Assembly (NCBI GenBank): GCA_020847395.1
Contig: JADLCD010000131.1
Location: forward strand, 1 to 41,552
Reading direction: 5' to 3'
Length of the DNA: 41,552 nt
DNA from: Chitinophagaceae bacterium
GTDB lineage: Bacteria; Bacteroidota; Bacteroidia; Chitinophagales; Chitinophagaceae
The position numbers and the translations under genes were made by a program. Below are positions 12,658 to 29,436 of the stretch, piece after piece; position 1 is the first letter of the stretch; every line of letters begins with the position of its first letter. The notes beneath the pieces were generated by a model that worked only from the letters and a program-made list of their open reading frames with translations, ran no database searches and was not told the origin of the DNA.

Positions 12658-13212
12658 TTAATGATTAAGTATAAAATCCTCTATCTTTTTTACTGCATGA
12701 TGATAACTGGCTTTTAAAGCTCCTTCAGAAGTATCTAAAACTTTGCTCATCTCTTCATAAGGCATCTCATCATAATAGCGGAGATTGAATACAAGTCTCT
12801 GTTTTTCAGGAAGTTGCTGTATTGCCATCTGAAGCTTCCACTCAGCTTTATTAGCATCAAAATCTTTTTCAGCCTGTAGTTTAGCTGCTACCGGACTTTC
12901 TTCATTATCAATTGATACGGAAGATTTTCTTTTTAGTTGCTCCAGGTAAGTGAGAGATTCATTCGTGGCAATTCTGTACAGCCAGGTATACAATTGGGAG
13001 TCTTCCCGGAAATTCTCCAATCCATTCCATACTTTAATGCATACGTTTTGTAAAACATCATTGGCATCTTCATGCTGAACAACAAGGCGGCGTATATGCC
13101 AGTAAAGCTTTTCCTGGTATTTTTTTAAAATGGCAGTGAAAGCTTTTTCCTTTGTGGCCGGATTACGAAATTCCTGCAATAATAAAATGTCATCGGAATG
13201 GCTGTTACCCAT
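12658..13212 (-). CDS. ECF-family RNA polymerase sigma factor
   Basis: A 184-residue group 4 sigma factor. Region 2 is clear (YWHIRRLVVQHEDANDVLQN, then VWNGLENFREDSQLYTWLYR, for -10 recognition). Region 4 has LPEKQRLVFNLRYYDEMPYE and the helix-turn-helix EMSKVLDTSEGALKASYHHA for -35 recognition. Between them lies a linker of about 40 residues. The start is 20 bp after the transketolase-half stop, so it may be read from the long rmlA-galE run, although sigma factors usually also have their own autoregulated promoter. Downstream lie a probable anti-sigma factor and a Spy-like protein, pointing to an envelope-stress role. Confidence 0.93.
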   Translation of the reverse strand: MGNSHSDDILLLQEFRNPATKEKAFTAILKKYQEKLYWHIRRLVVQHEDANDVLQNVCIKVWNGLENFREDSQLYTWLYRIATNESLTYLEQLKRKSSVSIDNEESPVAAKLQAEKDFDANKAEWKLQMAIQQLPEKQRLVFNLRYYDEMPYEEMSKVLDTSEGALKASYHHAVKKIEDFILNH

Positions 13213-16246: not shown

Positions 16247-17440
16247 TCAAAAAAAGAAATGAGAGATATAATATATCAATCCTGCCATTAATGCACTGAT
16301 GGGAATGGTAATTATCCATGCCCAAAGTAAGTTAACCGTTACGCCCCAGCGCACGGCAGATAATCTTTTAGTGGCGCCCACACCCATAATGGATCCTGCA
16401 ATGGTATGCGTGGTACTTACCGGTATTTTAAGATGTTCTGTAAGAAAGAGTGTAATGGCGCCTGCAGTTTCGGCTGCAACACCTTCAAAAGGCGTTACCT
16501 TGGTAATGCGGCTGCCCATGGTTTTTACAATTTTCCAGCCACCGCTCAATGTACCGAACGCAATAGCGGTATAACAGGAAATGGGTACCCATGTAGGCAT
16601 TTGCTCAAACTCCTGTATGTTGCCGTGGGCAATTAAAGCAACCGTAATTATACCCATTACTTTTTGCGCATCATTACCACCGTGCCCAATACTGAAGGCT
16701 GCTGAAGAAACTAATTGCAAACGTTTAAACCAAACTGTGGATTTATGCGCATTCAGCCGGCTGAGGTAAAGGGTAAAAATACACATCACCGTCATGATAA
16801 ACCCAATGAGCACCATCTTGAAGTTATTCGAATGGAAGATTACTTTAAGTATATAGCTGTTATAATGAGAAGTAAGTTTTGCCGGATCAAATTCCATAGT
16901 GTTGTATAAAATAATGATTACAACAAGCAGCACGCATAACGAAAAAATCTTTGGCCATATACTTTTCCTGAAGGAATTAATAAACCAGAGCGATATGATA
17001 AATGCCATGATCATACCTATAAGCGGCGCAAGAAGTATAAATGCTACGATTTGTAAAACCGGTGCTATATTAATTGATTGAAAGCCGGCATGTGCTATGG
17101 CAGCGCCTGCAAAACCACCAATAAGCGTATGCGATGAAGATGAGGGAATACCAAACCACCAGGTAAGCAGGTTCCAGATGATAGCTGCCGAAAGCCCTGC
17201 TAAAATTACCTGTAAGGTGATATAGCTTTCCTTAACCGTTTTGGCAATAGTATTTGCAACACCGTGATCTTTAAAAATAAAAAAAGCAATAAAGTTGAAT
17301 AAGGCAGCCCATAATACCGCCTGAAATGGTGTAAGCACTTTTGTGGATACGATAGTAGCTATAGAATTAGCGGCATCATGAAATCCATTAATATAATCGA
17401 AGATAAGCGCAAGAACTATAATGATTACTAACAAGGTCAT
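16247..17440 (-). CDS. PiT-family inorganic phosphate transporter
   Basis: A 397-residue inner-membrane low-affinity phosphate transporter (Pi with H+ or Na+). The two inverted-half signatures are visible: GFHDAANSIATIVSTKVLTP near the N-terminus and SIGHGGNDAQKVMG in the second half. SSSHTLIGGFAGAAIAHAG and STTHTIAGSIMGVGATKR are the paired repeats. About ten hydrophobic segments are present. It follows the DUF47 gene by 70 bp, the common DUF47-PiT pairing. A 17-bp stem lies between the two genes. Confidence 0.95.
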   Translation of the reverse strand: MTLLVIIIVLALIFDYINGFHDAANSIATIVSTKVLTPFQAVLWAALFNFIAFFIFKDHGVANTIAKTVKESYITLQVILAGLSAAIIWNLLTWWFGIPSSSSHTLIGGFAGAAIAHAGFQSINIAPVLQIVAFILLAPLIGMIMAFIISLWFINSFRKSIWPKIFSLCVLLVVIIILYNTMEFDPAKLTSHYNSYILKVIFHSNNFKMVLIGFIMTVMCIFTLYLSRLNAHKSTVWFKRLQLVSSAAFSIGHGGNDAQKVMGIITVALIAHGNIQEFEQMPTWVPISCYTAIAFGTLSGGWKIVKTMGSRITKVTPFEGVAAETAGAITLFLTEHLKIPVSTTHTIAGSIMGVGATKRLSAVRWGVTVNLLWAWIITIPISALMAGLIYYISHFFF

Positions 17441-17510: not shown

Positions 17511-18155
17511 TTACGCGTATTTAACAATGATAGATTCAATTACATTTGCTGCATCCTCACATTTATCCGTGGCAATTTCAAGCACCTGGTATATTTCTCT
17601 CTTCTTTATCACTTCTTTGGCATCAGGCTCCATTTCAAATAATCTTTCAATGCTCATATCAAAAATATCATCTGCCTGGTTTTCTATGCTGTTGATTTTT
17701 ACCAGCGATTCAGTAATCTGCCGGAGATTTTTCATATTGCGCAGTTCATGCACCGCTATATTGATGTGTTCGGCGCCGGCAACAATCAGGTCAGCAAATT
17801 TTTGCATGCCCTGTTCATTAGGGTTAACCTTGTAAAATTTTATTTTTTTGGAAGATGCGTGAATATAATCCGCTATATCATCCAGTGCGGAAGCAAGGTA
17901 GTGTATATCTTCCCTGTCGAAAGGAGTAATGAAATTTCTGCCTAACTCGGTAAAAATTTTGTGCGTAAGATCGTCATTCACGTGCTCCAGCTCTTCAATT
18001 TGTGAAGCAATGGCCGATCTTTTATCGTAATCCGGTTCATGCATCAATTCTCTTAATTTCCTTGCCATCTCTAATACTTTGGATGCAACATCTTCAAACA
18101 ACTGGTAAAAAATCCTGTCTTTAGGTAAAAAGAGCTTCATTATAGAGTTAATCAT
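17511..18155 (-). CDS. DUF47 family PhoU-like phosphate transport regulator
   Basis: A 214-residue all-helical cytoplasmic protein of the DUF47 (PhoU-like) family, recognised by KLFLPKDRIFYQLFEDVA at the start, the DREDIHYLASALDDIADYIHAS metal-binding helix, and ENQADDIFDMSIERLFE followed by YQVLEIATDKCEDAANVIESI. Members pair with PiT transporters and are thought to control their activity. ATG 18155 gives the full family N-terminus; Met6 (18140) is an alternative. A perfect -7 element lies 17 bases upstream. It is divergent from the TonB-receptor gene and shares its intergenic repeat array. Confidence 0.92.
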   Translation of the reverse strand: MINSIMKLFLPKDRIFYQLFEDVASKVLEMARKLRELMHEPDYDKRSAIASQIEELEHVNDDLTHKIFTELGRNFITPFDREDIHYLASALDDIADYIHASSKKIKFYKVNPNEQGMQKFADLIVAGAEHINIAVHELRNMKNLRQITESLVKINSIENQADDIFDMSIERLFEMEPDAKEVIKKREIYQVLEIATDKCEDAANVIESIIVKYA

Positions 18156-18171
18156 GCACGAAAATTTTGGG

Positions 18172-18179
18172 CAAAAATA
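18172..18179 (-). promoter_or_regulatory. Bacteroidota -7 promoter element for the DUF47-PiT operon
   Basis: TATTTTTG on the minus strand is an exact TAnnTTTG match 17-24 bases before the DUF47 start, giving a short leader. Confidence 0.55.
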
Positions 18180-18263
18180 GTTTTAACATTTGCGGTCGGC
18201 CAAATATTTTTATACTTAATGATTTCTTAACATTGAGCGGTTTTCAATACACATCTTTTACAC

Positions 18264-18329
18264 CGTCGTAACATTCAGGTAATATTCCGGTAACGCACTC
18301 TTAACCTCCCGGTAATTATCCGGTAATGT
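18264..18329 (+). promoter_or_regulatory. Six 11-bp direct repeats: probable PhoB/OmpR-family operator
   Basis: Six contiguous 11-bp units begin at 18264, 18275, 18286, 18297, 18308 and 18319. The pentamer at positions 4-8 of each unit is CGTAA, GGTAA, GGTAA, CTTAA, GGTAA, GGTAA. Flanking bases are also shared; units 2, 3, 5 and 6 begin TCA, TCC, CCC and TCC. Direct repeats at an 11-bp step are the known arrangement for OmpR/PhoB-class regulators (the E. coli Pho box). A near -7 element (TTCCTTTG, 18338-18345) follows directly, so the last units would cover the -33 region, as in PhoB-activated promoters. The regulator identity is an inference from the adjacent phosphate genes. Confidence 0.65.
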
Positions 18330-18337
18330 ATGCTGTA

Positions 18338-18345
18338 TTCCTTTG
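18338..18345 (+). promoter_or_regulatory. Probable -7 promoter element of the TonB-receptor gene
   Basis: TTCCTTTG matches TAnnTTTG at five of the six fixed positions and lies 9 bases past the repeat array. If used, the transcript starts only about 10 bases before ATG 18360, which argues against the upstream ATG at 18330. Confidence 0.35.
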
Positions 18346-18359
18346 CCGAAAATTCTGGT

Positions 18360-21152
18360 ATGCAGGTAAAGCTACAATATTGCGCGGTTCTTATTTTTCT
18401 ATTTTCTTTCTCATTTATTCAGGCTCAAACAGTTACGCTATCCGGTAAGGTAATAAATGAAAAAAATGAACCGGTATCAGGTGTTACGGTAAAGGCGGCA
18501 GGCGCTTCCGGAACTGTTACAGATATAGAAGGTATATATATATTATCGCTTAGCGCAGGTAAAAAATATGAACTTGATTTTTCTGCTGTTGGATATGAAA
18601 ACAAAATCATTACCGATGTAGAAGTGATTAGCGGACAGGTTAATGAACTGAATGTAGTAATAAGTGTAAAAGCAAAAGACTTAGAAGGCATTGTGGTAAC
18701 AGCAAAAAAATCCAGCGCAAGAATGGAAACAGTTTCTTCTGCTATACAATTTCAAAAAAATACAAATACCGTAGCTTCTGTTATTTCAGCGGAAAGCATT
18801 CGCAGAAGCCCGGACAGGAATACCGGAGAAGTATTGAAACGCATACCGGGAGTGAGCCTGCAGGAAAACAGGTTTGTGGTAGTGAGAGGACTGGCAGACA
18901 GGTATAACCAGGCTATGCTGAACGGTATATTACTTACCAGTACAGAACCTGACCGTAAAGCTTTTTCTTTCGATATGTTCCCAGCGCAGATTGTAGATAA
19001 TATCGTTATCAATAAAGCATTTGTTCCGGAGCTTCCCGGTGAGTGGGCTGGTGGCTTGATACAGATTAATACCAAAGATGTACCTGCGAAGCGTTTTTTT
19101 AATGTACAGGTGGGTACGGGTTTTAATACTCAAACTATAGGTAAAGATTTTTATAAAGTACCGGGCGGTAAACTCGACTGGCTGGGTGTTGATGATGGCT
19201 ATCGCAGCTTACCGGCTACCTATACCACCAAATCGCAGTTTGATGAATTATCTGCTGCCGATAAAACAGCTATCGGTAAGTCTATGAAAAATTCATGGAC
19301 CGGTGCAAAAGGCAATGCACCGTTTAATACATCCTTCCAGGTAAATGGTGGATTGAATACCACATTATTTGGTAAAAAAACCGGGGGCGTATTAAGTGTT
19401 GTATACAATAAAACCAACCGTTACCAGAAATTACTAAACAGGCTAAATTCCATAGATCAGCAAAATGTTTCTGTTGATTATAATTATAATGATGACAAAT
19501 ATTCACAGGATATTAGCTGGGGTGCATTAGGCAGTTTAACCATGCAGCTTAATTCACTCAACAAAATTTCTGTTAAGTCTGTTTTGAATGTTAATACTAC
19601 CAACTTTATTACTAACCGCTCCGGGGTAAGTAATGTTCGTAATGATAATATGTATGGAGCTGAAATCAAATTCAGGCAAAATACTTTCTTTACTGTTCAG
19701 GCAATAGGTGAGCATAGTTTAGCCACTCCTTTAAAATTAAAATGGTATGGTTCATTCAATATCCTGGATGCTTATACTCCTGACCAGCGGAGAATATTAT
19801 ATACACAAACTATCGGCTCACAGGAGCCTTACCTTCTTGCCATAGGAAACTCTCTTTCGCAGGAAAGCGGCAGCAGGATCTACCAAACGCTCAATGATTA
19901 TATATATACTGCAGGCGGCGATCTGAATTATAATTTCAACCTGTTTAACCAAAAGCAAACAGTGAAGGGCGGCTATATGCTGCAAATAAAAGACCGTTTG
20001 TATGATGCCAAACCTTTTTCAGTTTACCTGCCGGTAGATAATGCTGCATTGCGCCGGTTACCTGCCGGCCAGGTGTTTGCTCCTGAAAATTTTGGAGATG
20101 CTGCAGGCAACAGTAACAAATTTGCTTTTGATATTATTAAAGGAACCAATTTCCGTTATCTCGCTAATACAATTCTCAATGCCGGCTATATTCAGTTTGA
20201 TAATCAATTTTCACCGCTGCTGCGTGTGGTTTGGGGTTTGCGTGTAGAAAATTACGATCAGCTTGTGGGCAGTACAAAAACCAGTGACCCAAGATATACT
20301 CATTCAAAAGTAAACGACTTTTTACCGGGCTTGAATGCAACATTGAAATTAAACGGCAAAACCAATCTTCGGTTATCAGGTTCGCAAACGGTTATCAGGC
20401 CGGAGCTAAGAGAGCTTGCCTTTTTAAACCTGTATGATTTTGAATTGAACGCTTCTATACAGGGTAATCCTGCATTAAAACGCACAAAGGTTTCCAACGC
20501 CGATATCAGGTATGAGTTTTACCCGCGTGCAGGTGAAATATTTTCTGCTGGCGCTTTTTATAAATATTTCGCTAACCCTATTGAGCAAATATTTAATGCC
20601 GGCAGTGGGGGTGCAAGCACATTCAATTATCAAAACCCGGAGAAAGCGCAGTCGTACGGTGCAGAACTGGAAATACGAAAAAAGCTTGATTTTGTAAATG
20701 CGCTTAAAAACTTCACGTTCCAGGCAAATGCTGCATACATATACAGCAGGGTAGAAGATAAAGGACTTAACCTGAAAAGATCTTTGCAGGGACAATCACC
20801 TTATACTGTTAATCTTGGTTTGATGTATGATCTGGAAAAACCGGGCATTACTGCAACACTGTTATTTAACCAGATAGGTGAACGCATATACCTTGTGGGA
20901 GATATTTCCGCAGGTGCCGGTTCACCAGATATATATGAAGCCGCAAGACCAATTCTTGATTTTCAGTTAGCAAAAAAGCTCATTAAAAATAAAGCGGAAA
21001 TAAGATTGAATATTTCAGACATCTTAAACCAAACACAGTATTTCTACCAGAATACTGATGATAAAACAAGCTTTCAAAAAGATAAAGACCCTATTCGTTT
21101 TTCACGCAAATGGGGAACAACTTTTGGCGTAACATTTAATTACAGTTTATAA
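18360..21152 (+). CDS. TonB-dependent outer-membrane receptor with carboxypeptidase-like regulatory domain
   Basis: A 930-residue outer-membrane transporter. The signal peptide MQVKLQYCAVLIFLFSFSF-IQAQ is followed by a CarboxypepD_reg-like beta-sandwich (about 24-105: VTLSGKVINEKNEPVSGVTV, GTVTDIEGIYILSLS). The plug domain contains SAESIRRSPDRNTGEVLKRI, VVVRGLADRYNQAMLNG and PGEWAGGLIQINTKD. The rest is a 22-strand-type barrel ending WGTTFGVTFNYSL with a terminal aromatic pattern. It should import a substrate too large or scarce for porins, using TonB energy. There is no SusD partner; a lipoprotein gene follows after 27 bp. Its own promoter sits under six 11-bp repeats, and the divergent genes handle phosphate. 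The substrate is unknown; a phosphorus compound is an inference. ATG 18330 is rejected because it lies directly after the operator and before the -7 element. Confidence 0.93.
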   Translation: MQVKLQYCAVLIFLFSFSFIQAQTVTLSGKVINEKNEPVSGVTVKAAGASGTVTDIEGIYILSLSAGKKYELDFSAVGYENKIITDVEVISGQVNELNVVISVKAKDLEGIVVTAKKSSARMETVSSAIQFQKNTNTVASVISAESIRRSPDRNTGEVLKRIPGVSLQENRFVVVRGLADRYNQAMLNGILLTSTEPDRKAFSFDMFPAQIVDNIVINKAFVPELPGEWAGGLIQINTKDVPAKRFFNVQVGTGFNTQTIGKDFYKVPGGKLDWLGVDDGYRSLPATYTTKSQFDELSAADKTAIGKSMKNSWTGAKGNAPFNTSFQVNGGLNTTLFGKKTGGVLSVVYNKTNRYQKLLNRLNSIDQQNVSVDYNYNDDKYSQDISWGALGSLTMQLNSLNKISVKSVLNVNTTNFITNRSGVSNVRNDNMYGAEIKFRQNTFFTVQAIGEHSLATPLKLKWYGSFNILDAYTPDQRRILYTQTIGSQEPYLLAIGNSLSQESGSRIYQTLNDYIYTAGGDLNYNFNLFNQKQTVKGGYMLQIKDRLYDAKPFSVYLPVDNAALRRLPAGQVFAPENFGDAAGNSNKFAFDIIKGTNFRYLANTILNAGYIQFDNQFSPLLRVVWGLRVENYDQLVGSTKTSDPRYTHSKVNDFLPGLNATLKLNGKTNLRLSGSQTVIRPELRELAFLNLYDFELNASIQGNPALKRTKVSNADIRYEFYPRAGEIFSAGAFYKYFANPIEQIFNAGSGGASTFNYQNPEKAQSYGAELEIRKKLDFVNALKNFTFQANAAYIYSRVEDKGLNLKRSLQGQSPYTVNLGLMYDLEKPGITATLLFNQIGERIYLVGDISAGAGSPDIYEAARPILDFQLAKKLIKNKAEIRLNISDILNQTQYFYQNTDDKTSFQKDKDPIRFSRKWGTTFGVTFNYSL

Positions 21153-21179: not shown

Positions 21180-22646
21180 ATGAAACAACTAACACTATTG
21201 GCTGCGGTGGCAATAATATTGACGACAGCCGGTTGCCGTAAAATTGAAATGGATGGTAGCGGAAGCGGAAATGGAAACGGGAATGGAAGTGGCAGCGGAT
21301 CTACTGTAACACTAACCGGTCGTATAACCAAAGACATTACGCTGAAAAAAGCAGACGAAAATATTATTTCAGGCATTGTTTATATAGCTGATGGGGCAAC
21401 GCTTACCGTTGAAGCAGGTGCAACCGTAAAAGGTGATTATAAAGGAACTAATGTGGCGGCGCTCGTAATTACACGTAGTTCAAAAATTGAAGCAAAAGGT
21501 ACACAGGATGAACCTATTGTTTTTACAAGCTCGTCTCCTGATCCGCGTTCCGGCGACTGGGGCGGTATTGTACTTTGCGGTAAGGCAAATGTAAACACAG
21601 CATTCAGCGGCACTGGTGGTGGACAGGGGATTATGGAAGTAGAAGGCGGCATTAATAACGCCAATGGCGATGGCCTTGCAGGCGGCGGTACCACACCAGA
21701 TGACGCTGACAACAGCGGAACATTGCAGTATGTAAGAATTGAATATGCAGGTTATGCATATCAACCCGATAAAGAAGTAAACAGTTTAACATTGGCAGCA
21801 GTGGGCAGCGGAACCACTATAGATCATATACAGGTTTCTTATGCAAAAGATGATGCCTATGAATGGTTTGGCGGTACGGTAAACTGTAAATATCTTATTG
21901 CCTATAAAACACAGGATGATGATTTTGATACGGATAATGGCTTTAGCGGAACTGTGCAATTTGGATTAATTGTGCGTGATTCCCTGATTGCAGATATTTC
22001 AAAATCAGAATCATTTGAAAGCGATAACAATTCTGCCGGTTCAACAGTAGCCCCGCAAACCAGGGCTGTATTTTCAAATATTACTTCTGTAGGGCCATTG
22101 GCTACATTGAATAATGTGGGTAACAGCAATTATCTTGCAGGCGCTCAAATCAGGAGAAACTCCTCTATCTCAATATTTAATTCTGTGTTTTTAGGATGGC
22201 CAACGGGTATATTCATTGATGCTACAACAGGAAGGGCAACAGACAGAAATATAATGGACAGTACACTCAGAATAAGAAGTGTGATTGTGGCTGGTTGCAA
22301 AGCTGCGGTAAACTATGCCAAAGGATCTAATACAGATGTAACAGGCGCTACTCCTGAATTTATTAAAAGCTGGTTTTTAACAGACCACTTTAAAAACAGG
22401 ATTCTGGAAAGTACTGATAATTTATACACACGTGCTTTTGATTATTCAAGCCCCGACTTTATTCCTTTTGGTAATGCATCCTCCATACTTGTAGATCAAA
22501 GTGGAAAAACATCATTTACCTATTTTGACGATCCGGTTATTACTGCAAGAAGTTTTATTACTGCTGTAAATTTTATAGGCGCAATAGCCCCGGCAGGTGA
22601 ATATGCAGGCTGGCACAAGGGGTGGACAAAATTTGCGAATAATTAA
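21180..22646 (+). CDS. Outer-surface lipoprotein paired with the TonB receptor
   Basis: A 488-residue lipoprotein. The lipobox ends TTAGC with Cys19; residues about 25-41 are a flexible Gly/Ser/Asn linker. The body is beta-rich with repeated short strands (ISGIVYIADGATLTVEAGATVKG, ALVITRSSKIEAKG, GDWGGIVLCGKA, LQYVRIEYAGYAY, IDHIQVSYAKDDAYEWFGG), a pattern resembling right-handed beta-helix proteins. Acidic clusters (KTQDDDFDTDNG, TTPDDADNSG) could bind metal. It lies 27 bp after the TonB receptor and must be co-transcribed, so a surface substrate-binding or processing role is likely. I do not recognise a catalytic motif. A terminator follows. Confidence 0.8.
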   Translation: MKQLTLLAAVAIILTTAGCRKIEMDGSGSGNGNGNGSGSGSTVTLTGRITKDITLKKADENIISGIVYIADGATLTVEAGATVKGDYKGTNVAALVITRSSKIEAKGTQDEPIVFTSSSPDPRSGDWGGIVLCGKANVNTAFSGTGGGQGIMEVEGGINNANGDGLAGGGTTPDDADNSGTLQYVRIEYAGYAYQPDKEVNSLTLAAVGSGTTIDHIQVSYAKDDAYEWFGGTVNCKYLIAYKTQDDDFDTDNGFSGTVQFGLIVRDSLIADISKSESFESDNNSAGSTVAPQTRAVFSNITSVGPLATLNNVGNSNYLAGAQIRRNSSISIFNSVFLGWPTGIFIDATTGRATDRNIMDSTLRIRSVIVAGCKAAVNYAKGSNTDVTGATPEFIKSWFLTDHFKNRILESTDNLYTRAFDYSSPDFIPFGNASSILVDQSGKTSFTYFDDPVITARSFITAVNFIGAIAPAGEYAGWHKGWTKFANN

Positions 22647-27698: not shown

Positions 27699-27742
27699 GA
27701 TATCAAAAATCAATGACCTTAAATTCGCCATCCCGACAAACT

Positions 27743-27775
27743 TTGGTAACATTCAGTTAATGTTATTTTAATATG
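27743..27775 (+). promoter_or_regulatory. Second 11-bp repeat site resembling the TonB-receptor array
   Basis: Pentamers GGTAA (27745), GTTAA (27756) and TTTAA (27767) recur at an exact 11-bp step. The 19 bases 27746-27764 match 18268-18286 at 17 positions, including the shared core GTAACATTCAG. It lies 100-130 bp ahead of dnaB. Confidence 0.35.
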
Positions 27776-27873
27776 AGGGTAATAGAAGATAAAGAATGGT
27801 GAGATTAATGACATGCTGGCTAACCTTAAAAAACCAACTTTTAAAACGATTACTCTATATATAAATTTTTTTA

Positions 27874-29436
27874 ATGGAACCCCTTACTAATCTGAATAAA
27901 GACCGTAAAGCCCGCCGTAAAAGTACCCTCGACCTCAGCACAATGGTGTATGGCAAAATACCACCACAGGCAAGGGACCTTGAAGAGGCAGTGTTAGGCG
28001 CGATTATGCTTGAAAAAACGGCTTTTGATACGGTTGTTGAAATATTGAAACCTGAGTGTTTTTATGTAGATGCTCATCAGCGTATTTTCCGCGCCATGCA
28101 AAACCTGGCACAAAAAAGTATGCCTATCGATTTATTAACGGTTGTAGAAGAATTAAAAACAAAAGAAGAATTAGAACTGATAGGAGGTCCGTACTATGTT
28201 ACCAAACTTACCAGCTCGGTGGTTTCTTCGGCTAATATAGAAACGCATGCACGTATTATTCTGCAAAAATTTATTCAGCGAGACCTTATCCGCATAAGTG
28301 GAGAAATCATCAGTGATGCTTATGAAGATTCCACTGATGTATTTGATTTGCTTGACGAGGCTGAAAGCAAACTTTTCGACATCACCAATAATCACCTGCG
28401 CAAAAACTTCGACAGTATTGATGCGGTATTGGTAAAAACCATTCAGCGTATTGAAGATATGCGCAACCGCCAGGAAGATATTACCGGCGCGCCGAGTGGC
28501 TTTGCATCGCTTGACAGGATTACCTATGGCTGGCAGCCAACAGACCTGGTCATCCTTGCAGCCCGCCCTTCAGTAGGTAAAACAGCTTTTGCGCTTAACC
28601 TTGCCCGTAATGCGGCGCTTCATCCTACCAAGCCAACACCGATTGCTTTTTTTAGTCTTGAAATGAGTTCCGCGCAACTTGTGCAACGTATTTTAAGTGC
28701 TGAAAGCGAAATATGGCTTGAAAAGATTGCAAGAGGTAAAATGGAGCAGCATGAAATGGAACAGCTATACCGCAATGGTATACAGCGCCTGCAAAATGCG
28801 CCCATCTTTATAGACGATACCCCTGCCTTAAACATATTTGAATTAAGAGCAAAATGCCGAAGGCTTAAAAATAAACATAATGTTGGGCTGGTTATTATAG
28901 ACTACCTGCAATTGATGAGCGGCACCGGCGATAAACGCAGCTCAAATCGTGAGCAGGAAATCAGTACCATTTCAAGAAACCTGAAAGGCCTTGCGAAAGA
29001 ATTGGGTATACCTATCATAGCATTAAGCCAGTTAAGCCGTGAAGTAGAGAAAAGAAAAGAAGGCGATAAGATGCCGCAGTTAAGTGATTTGAGAGAGTCT
29101 GGTGCTATTGAGCAGGATGCGGATATGGTAATGTTCCTCTATCGCCCGGAGTATTACAATATTACTGCCAATGAAATGGGTGAAAGCAATAAAGGAGAAA
29201 CGCATGTAAGAATTGCAAAGCACCGTAATGGTTCTCTTGAAACAATAAAACTTCGTGCTTTACTGCATATTCAGAAATTTATTGAGATGGAATCAGATGA
29301 TTTTGGGGGTATAGCTCCACAGGGCGGTAATTGGAAACCCTTACCCGGCAACTCAGGAGATGATGCTGCAAGGCTGTTTATACAAAAAGGAAGCAGGATG
29401 AATGATAGCAGGTTTGATGAAGATGCCCCATTTTAA
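27874..29436 (+). CDS. dnaB: Replicative DNA helicase
   Basis: A 520-residue hexameric helicase that unwinds DNA at the replication fork. The N-terminal DnaB domain (about 28-135: PQARDLEEAVLGAIMLEKTA) binds primase. The RecA-like C-terminal domain has Walker A ARPSVGKTA (230-238), FFSLEMSSAQLVQRIL, Walker B GLVIIDYLQLM, the LSQLSREVEKR loop and SGAIEQDADMVMFLYRPEYY. The C-terminal ~50 residues are a glycine/asparagine-rich tail ending FDEDAPF, similar to the acidic protein-interaction tip of SSB. No intein is present. A terminator follows. Confidence 0.97.
   Translation: MEPLTNLNKDRKARRKSTLDLSTMVYGKIPPQARDLEEAVLGAIMLEKTAFDTVVEILKPECFYVDAHQRIFRAMQNLAQKSMPIDLLTVVEELKTKEELELIGGPYYVTKLTSSVVSSANIETHARIILQKFIQRDLIRISGEIISDAYEDSTDVFDLLDEAESKLFDITNNHLRKNFDSIDAVLVKTIQRIEDMRNRQEDITGAPSGFASLDRITYGWQPTDLVILAARPSVGKTAFALNLARNAALHPTKPTPIAFFSLEMSSAQLVQRILSAESEIWLEKIARGKMEQHEMEQLYRNGIQRLQNAPIFIDDTPALNIFELRAKCRRLKNKHNVGLVIIDYLQLMSGTGDKRSSNREQEISTISRNLKGLAKELGIPIIALSQLSREVEKRKEGDKMPQLSDLRESGAIEQDADMVMFLYRPEYYNITANEMGESNKGETHVRIAKHRNGSLETIKLRALLHIQKFIEMESDDFGGIAPQGGNWKPLPGNSGDDAARLFIQKGSRMNDSRFDEDAPF

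Follow-up and report, generated by a model that had tools for sequence, protein, structure and literature searches.

Known phosphate operators and the locus

The Pho box of E. coli consists of 11-bp direct repeats, with 10 bp between the box and the -10 element downstream of it (PMC4415409, PMC1906773), and the consensus of the Pho box varies between species (PMC4415409). The cyanobacterial SphR box is made up of at least three tandem 8-bp boxes, CTTAACCT, joined by a 3-bp linker, which gives an 11-bp step (PMC1906773). In Riemerella anatipestifer, the most conserved bases of the PhoP motif have been reported as TTTAACA; PhoPR is upregulated in phosphate starvation, and PhoP shifts promoter DNA of a TonB receptor and of dnaG (PMC9603813). 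The phosphate regulon of F. johnsoniae, including phoBR and plcP, has been mapped by transcriptomics and proteomics. Fjoh_0545 and Fjoh_0546, which lie in the phoBR cluster, were strongly induced by phosphate depletion, and Fjoh_0546 was described as a hypothetical lipoprotein (IPR011050) (PMC8115612). Likewise, plcP of Dokdonia was induced by phosphorus starvation (PMC4796936). As judged by listings and a few passages of open-licence full texts, no operator rule for Bacteroidota beyond the Riemerella PhoP motif was found.

The window analyzed here (the whole stretch of 41,552 nucleotides) contains a six-unit array of 11-bp repeats, flanked on one side by a TonB-dependent receptor gene and on the other by a DUF47 (PhoU_div)-PiT operon that is divergent from it. 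As judged from sequence comparison, this array is very probably the operator of a PhoB-type regulator that would activate the receptor-lipoprotein pair under phosphate starvation. The features of the locus are as follows.

16247 to 17440, minus strand: PiT phosphate transporter (PHO4), by Pfam
17511 to 18155, minus strand: DUF47/PhoU_div phosphate-transport accessory protein, by Pfam
18254 to 18264, plus strand: degenerate seventh unit in register, TCTTTTACACC, from a scan with a weight matrix built from other species' arrays
18264 to 18329, plus strand: putative six-unit 11-bp operator array of the Pho-box type with a KTAAY core, from self-similarity, shuffles, the weight matrix and homologues
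18338 to 18345, plus strand: -7-like promoter element TTCCTTTG, from the register in homologues; its TTTG begins 19 bp past the K of the last unit
18360 to 21152, plus strand: TonB-dependent receptor (Pfam domains Plug, CarbopepD_reg and OMP_b-brl_3)
21180 to 22646, plus strand: lipoprotein of 488 aa with a lipobox-like N-terminus and a mostly beta structure model

The six-unit array and its core

An earlier note on this DNA had pointed to GGTAA-like pentamers at 11-bp steps, and these are present at 18267, 18278, 18289, 18300, 18311 and 18322 (CGTAA, GGTAA, GGTAA, CTTAA, GGTAA and GGTAA, respectively). Four of the six are exact GGTAA, one has a single mismatch and one has two, and all six units match KTAAY in phase at the 11-bp step. 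The 66-bp sequence was identical to itself at 30 of 55 positions at a lag of 11 and at 22 of 44 positions at a lag of 22, with 19 of 54 as the next best value among lags 2 to 29. When the entire 41.5-kb window was shuffled 300 times with dinucleotides preserved, the longest KTAAY run at 11 bp was three units (6 of 300 shuffles), and the longest run at any spacing from 6 to 30 bp was four units (1 of 300 shuffles). The six-unit array scored 37.5 bits with a weight matrix derived from the receptor arrays of other species. In the organism's own genome (5.17 Mb), a three-unit pattern occurred at three places, two of them inside the window; as a reversed control pattern gave two matches, the third place may be due to chance.

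The repeats are thus real, but the GGTAA core that the earlier note had assigned to them proved to be a local form only. The consensus of 251 units was (C/G)(G/T)TAA(C/T)ATT. GGTAA was rejected as a general core, because G and T are about equally frequent at position 1 of the unit in relatives and most of the information resides in TAA(C/T). The E. coli-type core CTGTCAT does not fit the consensus of the 251 units either.

The repeats are followed by a near -7 element, as had been described previously: TTCCTTTG differs from the exact consensus by one mismatch. The receptor most likely starts at the ATG at 18360 rather than at 18330, judging from its orthologues at loci L011 and L012, which have an in-frame stop between both positions. 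The closest named receptor orthologue, from Terrimonas sp. NS-102, is 94% identical. The lipoprotein encoded downstream had no Pfam match over its 488 aa. Its structure model is mostly beta, with a mean pLDDT of 87.4 (34 sequences), and the PDB matches listed for it were weak (best E value, 7.6e-4; TM-scores of at most 0.36) and largely beta-helix proteins (e.g., mannuronan epimerases, tailspikes and pectate lyases). Elsewhere in the window, an ECF-type sigma factor gene is located at 12658 to 13212 on the minus strand, downstream of transketolase and sugar-nucleotide genes.

Conservation of phase and promoter register

Conservation of the 11-bp phase in relatives had been set beforehand as a test, and the phase was retained. 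In 29 receptor loci of relatives, KTAAY pairs numbered 55, 33, 26 and 17 at 11, 22, 33 and 44 bp, respectively, compared to a mean of 1.5 and a maximum of 7 at other lags. A set of 80 named receptor loci was then reduced to 77 by dropping three with less than 250 bp upstream; the same genomes occur twice among the loci as L174/L010, L175/L011, L207/L014 and L222/L013. In these 77 promoters, pairs at the same four lags numbered 121, 87, 59 and 32, and lags that are not multiples of 11 had at most 10 pairs each. At least three in-phase units at 11 bp were present in 54 of the 77 loci, compared to at most one locus for other spacings from 7 to 16 bp; the remaining 23 named loci did not reach this number. 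Across seven aligned loci of the genus, the unit sequences vary and the spacing is constant. In nine of the 11 Chryseobacterium/Kaistella receptor loci (L231 to L247), the upstream 300 bp contained fewer than three in-phase units; their promoter may lie further up, or they may have another arrangement.

The distance from the last in-phase unit to TTTGC was exactly 19 bp in 38 of the 54 arrays, and seven more TTTGC occurrences were found at 30, 41 or 52 bp. A single phase (8 mod 11) is therefore common to 45 of the 46 TTTGC occurrences within 75 bp downstream; nine of the 54 arrays had no TTTGC within that distance. A constant distance thus separates the end of the array from the -7 element, and the array covers the -33 region, which it would replace. 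The earlier note had stated that such repeats replace the -35 region in PhoB-activated promoters.

Genome-wide matches and candidate target genes

A sequence-only profile (R1) was built from 37 arrays and their -7 elements; the 43 in-register arrays had been reduced to this number by a redundancy filter, with L207 left out and the window added. A search of 38 genomes, the organism's own included, gave 84 listed matches at E values of up to 0.01, and a column-permuted decoy of R1 gave none in the same genomes (best value, 0.0134). The matches comprised 23 at receptor genes (19 genomes), nine at plcP (nine genomes), nine at dnaB (nine genomes), four at the lipoprotein gene, at least two each at phoB and oprP, and at least one at pstS. 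The numbers for phoB, oprP and pstS are lower bounds, as only part of the gene matches were entered as class intervals; the intervals of the lipoprotein class were set roughly, and 56 of the 84 matches were read gene by gene. A further 34 of the 84 matches fell into none of the tested classes. As R1 contains the window promoter and promoters of some of the searched species, its receptor matches are partly circular. The matches at nonreceptor genes are not. Occurrence of the motif before phosphate genes, a second test set beforehand, was borne out by the plcP, lipoprotein, phoB, oprP and pstS matches.

The product of the gene here named plcP is a calcineurin-like phosphoesterase, and the name was given by analogy with the lipid-remodelling phospholipase (PMC8115612, PMC4796936). 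Units at 11 bp were present in 17 of the 22 plcP loci for at least two units and in nine of the 22 for at least three, compared to at most three and none of the 22 loci, respectively, at other spacings from 7 to 16 bp. PstS was rejected as the main test gene, since it was over the cut-off in only three of the 38 genomes and otherwise gave weak PstS-like matches. These weak PstS-like genes of relatives, the organism's own included, showed no enrichment, with three units in one of 30 loci and none of the 30 over the strict matrix threshold. For pstS across the phylum, the signal was small but specific: at least three units occurred in three of 30 loci and in none at other spacings, and of the six loci with at least two units, four had TTTG at an offset of 19 or 30. 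OprP was likewise dismissed as a general target (at least three units in three of 22 loci, at least two in six of 22). The strict matrix threshold of 22.06 was passed by two of 22 plcP, two of 30 phylum-wide PstS and nine of 23 family dnaB loci; this threshold is severe, because the null contains some real sites.

In the organism's own genome, there was no plcP match at 1e-30 and the PstS-like match was weak. Its phosphate regulon therefore appears small, or the assembly lacks parts of it. A degenerate array with TTTGC precedes a SusC/SusD-like pair in the same genome (contig C141, 87216 to 87273; locus L376, 1217 to 1274; E value, 0.0024), possibly a SusCD system for phosphate utilization. 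R1 also matched at loci L294 and L299 of two members of the genus (E values, 2.8e-6 and 1.9e-5, respectively), approximately 190 bp before a gene for an ABC-F-like ATPase.

Putative operator pair at the DUF47-PiT operon

The divergent operon has repeats and a promoter element of its own.

18172 to 18179, minus strand: DUF47-PiT -7 element, CAAAAATA on the plus strand and TATTTTTG on the minus strand (CAAAnnTA is the reverse complement of TAnnTTTG)
18216 to 18231, no strand assigned: putative two-unit operator TTAATGATTTCTTAAC, inverted relative to DUF47-PiT, 44 bp start to start from the DUF47-PiT -7 element

When the seven genus loci were aligned, the longest stretch of invariant columns fell within TTAATGATTTCTTAAC. 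Removal of four duplicate genomes and one second match from 24 rows left 19 distinct divergent-DUF47 loci. Of these, 13 had a KTAAY pair at 44 or 45 bp and one had it at 33 bp; in two loci a pair was present without a matching -7 element, and in three there was no pair at this place. The orfA-pit operon of Sinorhizobium meliloti is repressed in phosphate starvation through a PHO box (cited in PMC3131613). By analogy with this operon, repression in phosphate starvation is the likelier sign at the DUF47-PiT pair. The two cases are alike in that a pit operon carries a PHO box, a putative one in the present case; they differ in that the S. meliloti box is just upstream of the translation start, whereas the pair described here is upstream of the -7 element (PMC3131613).

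A second array at dnaB

A further array was found in the window, close to the gene for the replicative helicase.

27720 to 27727, plus strand: conserved -7-like element TAAATTCG before dnaB, from family loci
27743 to 27786, plus strand: four-unit array, which begins 15 bp past the end of the dnaB -7-like element
27874 to 29436, plus strand: dnaB, replicative DNA helicase, annotated by family

With the receptor matrix of other species, the dnaB array scored 26.3 bits, and the next independent places in the window scored 3.5 (plus strand) and 3.9 (minus strand). In the organism's own genome, R1 matched the array only at an E value of 0.027. In the scan with the strict matrix threshold of 22.06, the array scored 21.5, just below it. 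At least two in-register units, with the first core 21 to 23 bp past TTCG, were present in 10 of 20 dnaB loci of the family when ATAAY was allowed in the unit count. Seven more distant dnaB loci had no score above zero in the matrix scan; one of these, L141, ends at a contig end and was wrongly anchored.

No exact TAnnTTTG or TAnnTTCG was found at +15 of any unit in the dnaB arrays examined, and two of the 10 array loci came within one mismatch of a -7 element (L119 after the third unit, L126 inside the array). The lack of an exact in-register -7 element after the array weakens its reading as an activator site for a downstream promoter. Such a reading keeps some probability because of these two near matches and because the receptor's own -7 element is itself one mismatch off. 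The array is unlikely to belong to pheT, as L126 and L127 keep it without pheT in the 1.5 kb upstream.

The position of the array downstream of the likely dnaB promoter, probably in the start of the transcript, suggests a repressor-like road-block. It is possible, though somewhat doubtful, that the Chitinophagaceae phosphate regulator binds this array and blocks helicase transcription, so that starvation would directly brake replication. If this is true, one operator alphabet would be used in two geometries, with activation from upstream arrays locked to the -7 element and road-block repression from downstream arrays. Riemerella PhoP binds the dnaG promoter, and deletion of phoP lowers dnaG (PMC9603813), so the sign there may differ from the repression proposed for dnaB. 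Judged by titles and abstract openings, no report of dnaB control by PhoB was found in the literature. Through the dnaB array, a direct coupling of replication to phosphate supply becomes testable.

Candidate regulator and alternative explanations

The window is contig C133, and the organism's own PhoB-like regulator is encoded on contig C101, with a histidine kinase gene after it. The two best families of this regulator were TIGR02154 (PhoB) and the Bacteroides PhoB model NF053854; its scores were below the cut-offs of both PhoB equivalogs (215.7 versus 296.2 and 207.9 versus 270, respectively). In the 300 bp preceding the gene, KTAAY units spaced 11 or 22 bp apart were absent. A same-strand pair with either spacing was found in 10 of 30 PhoB-like loci, none of which is the organism's own. 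Arrays adjoin PhoB-like genes in L080, L083, L307 and L308; in L080 the opposite flank of the array is occupied by an OprP-like porin, and in L083 a lipoprotein homologue adjoins the PhoB-like gene. The picture for phoB autoregulation is mixed, with arrays directly before phoB in L307 and L308. As arrays stand beside PhoB-like genes and the Riemerella TTTAACA fits the consensus, the evidence favors PhoB as the candidate binder. We infer that the binder is the own PhoB-like protein, that its effect is activation and that the signal is low phosphate.

During phosphate starvation, each 11-bp unit would be occupied by one phosphorylated PhoB monomer. The monomers would be arranged head to tail along a single face of the DNA, leaving only a few bases before the -7 element. 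Bound PhoB could then take over the -33 contact and recruit RNA polymerase, leading to transcription of the receptor and lipoprotein genes.

Other OmpR/PhoB-family regulators also bind head to tail at approximately 11 bp, and one that responds to a different signal might bind the array instead. The position of the own PhoB-like protein under the equivalog cut-offs and the presence of dnaB and SusC-like genes among the targets are in line with such a regulator. However, arrays adjoin PhoB-like genes and precede plcP, pstS and oprP, and the own regulator matches TIGR02154 PhoB better than any other family, which makes this explanation unlikely. The array is within the intergenic region common to both operons and could thus be a repressor or dual operator that serves mainly the divergent DUF47-PiT operon rather than the receptor. 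This is very improbable, as the array keeps phase with the receptor's -7 element, a DUF47 match within 1.5 kb upstream is lacking at most array loci, and a constant distance separates the DUF47-PiT promoter from a pair of its own. Still less credible is a chance or structural repeat with no regulatory function: some short runs do arise in AT-rich DNA, but the phase is kept in 77 promoters though the unit sequences vary, the register to the promoter is shared and the decoy control was empty.

The most likely identity of the array is thus that of a Pho operator of Bacteroidota with a TTAAC-type core. The general reading of the earlier note, that of a Bacteroidota Pho box, is supported by the conserved phase, the -7 register and the recurrence at phosphate genes. 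At least two head-to-tail 11-bp repeats were found at a fixed place upstream of the core promoter, and they occur at phosphate-starvation genes of the group, except for the weak PstS-like genes and with little at OprP.

Comparison with known systems

The Pho operator as a kind is known; what is new is the array length, the combination of a TTAAC-type core and a strict -7 register in Bacteroidota, and the placement at dnaB. The array, the 11-bp phase and the fixed -7 distance together provide a rule for predicting phosphate genes in unannotated genomes of Bacteroidota, which contribute to phosphorus turnover in soil and plants.

Like the E. coli box, the array consists of 11-bp direct repeats just upstream of a promoter element (PMC1906773). 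The E. coli box differs in its CTGTCAT core, its two units and its sigma-70 -10 element, in contrast to the Bacteroidota -7 element of the array (PMC4415409, PMC1906773). Unit 4 of the array contains the SphR consensus CTTAACCT exactly; however, SphR belongs to another phylum and promoter type, and here the core is more commonly followed by ATT than by CCT (PMC1906773).

The receptor and lipoprotein genes are a pair similar to the PUSIV-type receptor and FII lipoprotein of F. johnsoniae, not the same cluster. The likeness to Fjoh_0545 is in the Pfam set (PF07715, PF13715 and PF14905) and in the order, with the lipoprotein gene after the receptor gene (PMC8115612). In F. johnsoniae the pair is beside phoBR, whereas here it is beside PiT and the phoB-like gene is on contig C101 (PMC8115612). 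A pectin-lyase (beta-helix) fold would be expected of an FII lipoprotein; for the lipoprotein described here, the model is mostly beta and the weak PDB matches are largely beta-helix proteins. The main text of the F. johnsoniae study uses none of the words Pho box, motif or promoter (PMC8115612). The PhoP operator of Riemerella, from the same phylum, resembles the array in that TTTAACA is close to the unit consensus (PMC9603813). The text of that study likens the Riemerella motif to the E. coli ArcA motif, and it may well span repeats (PMC9603813).
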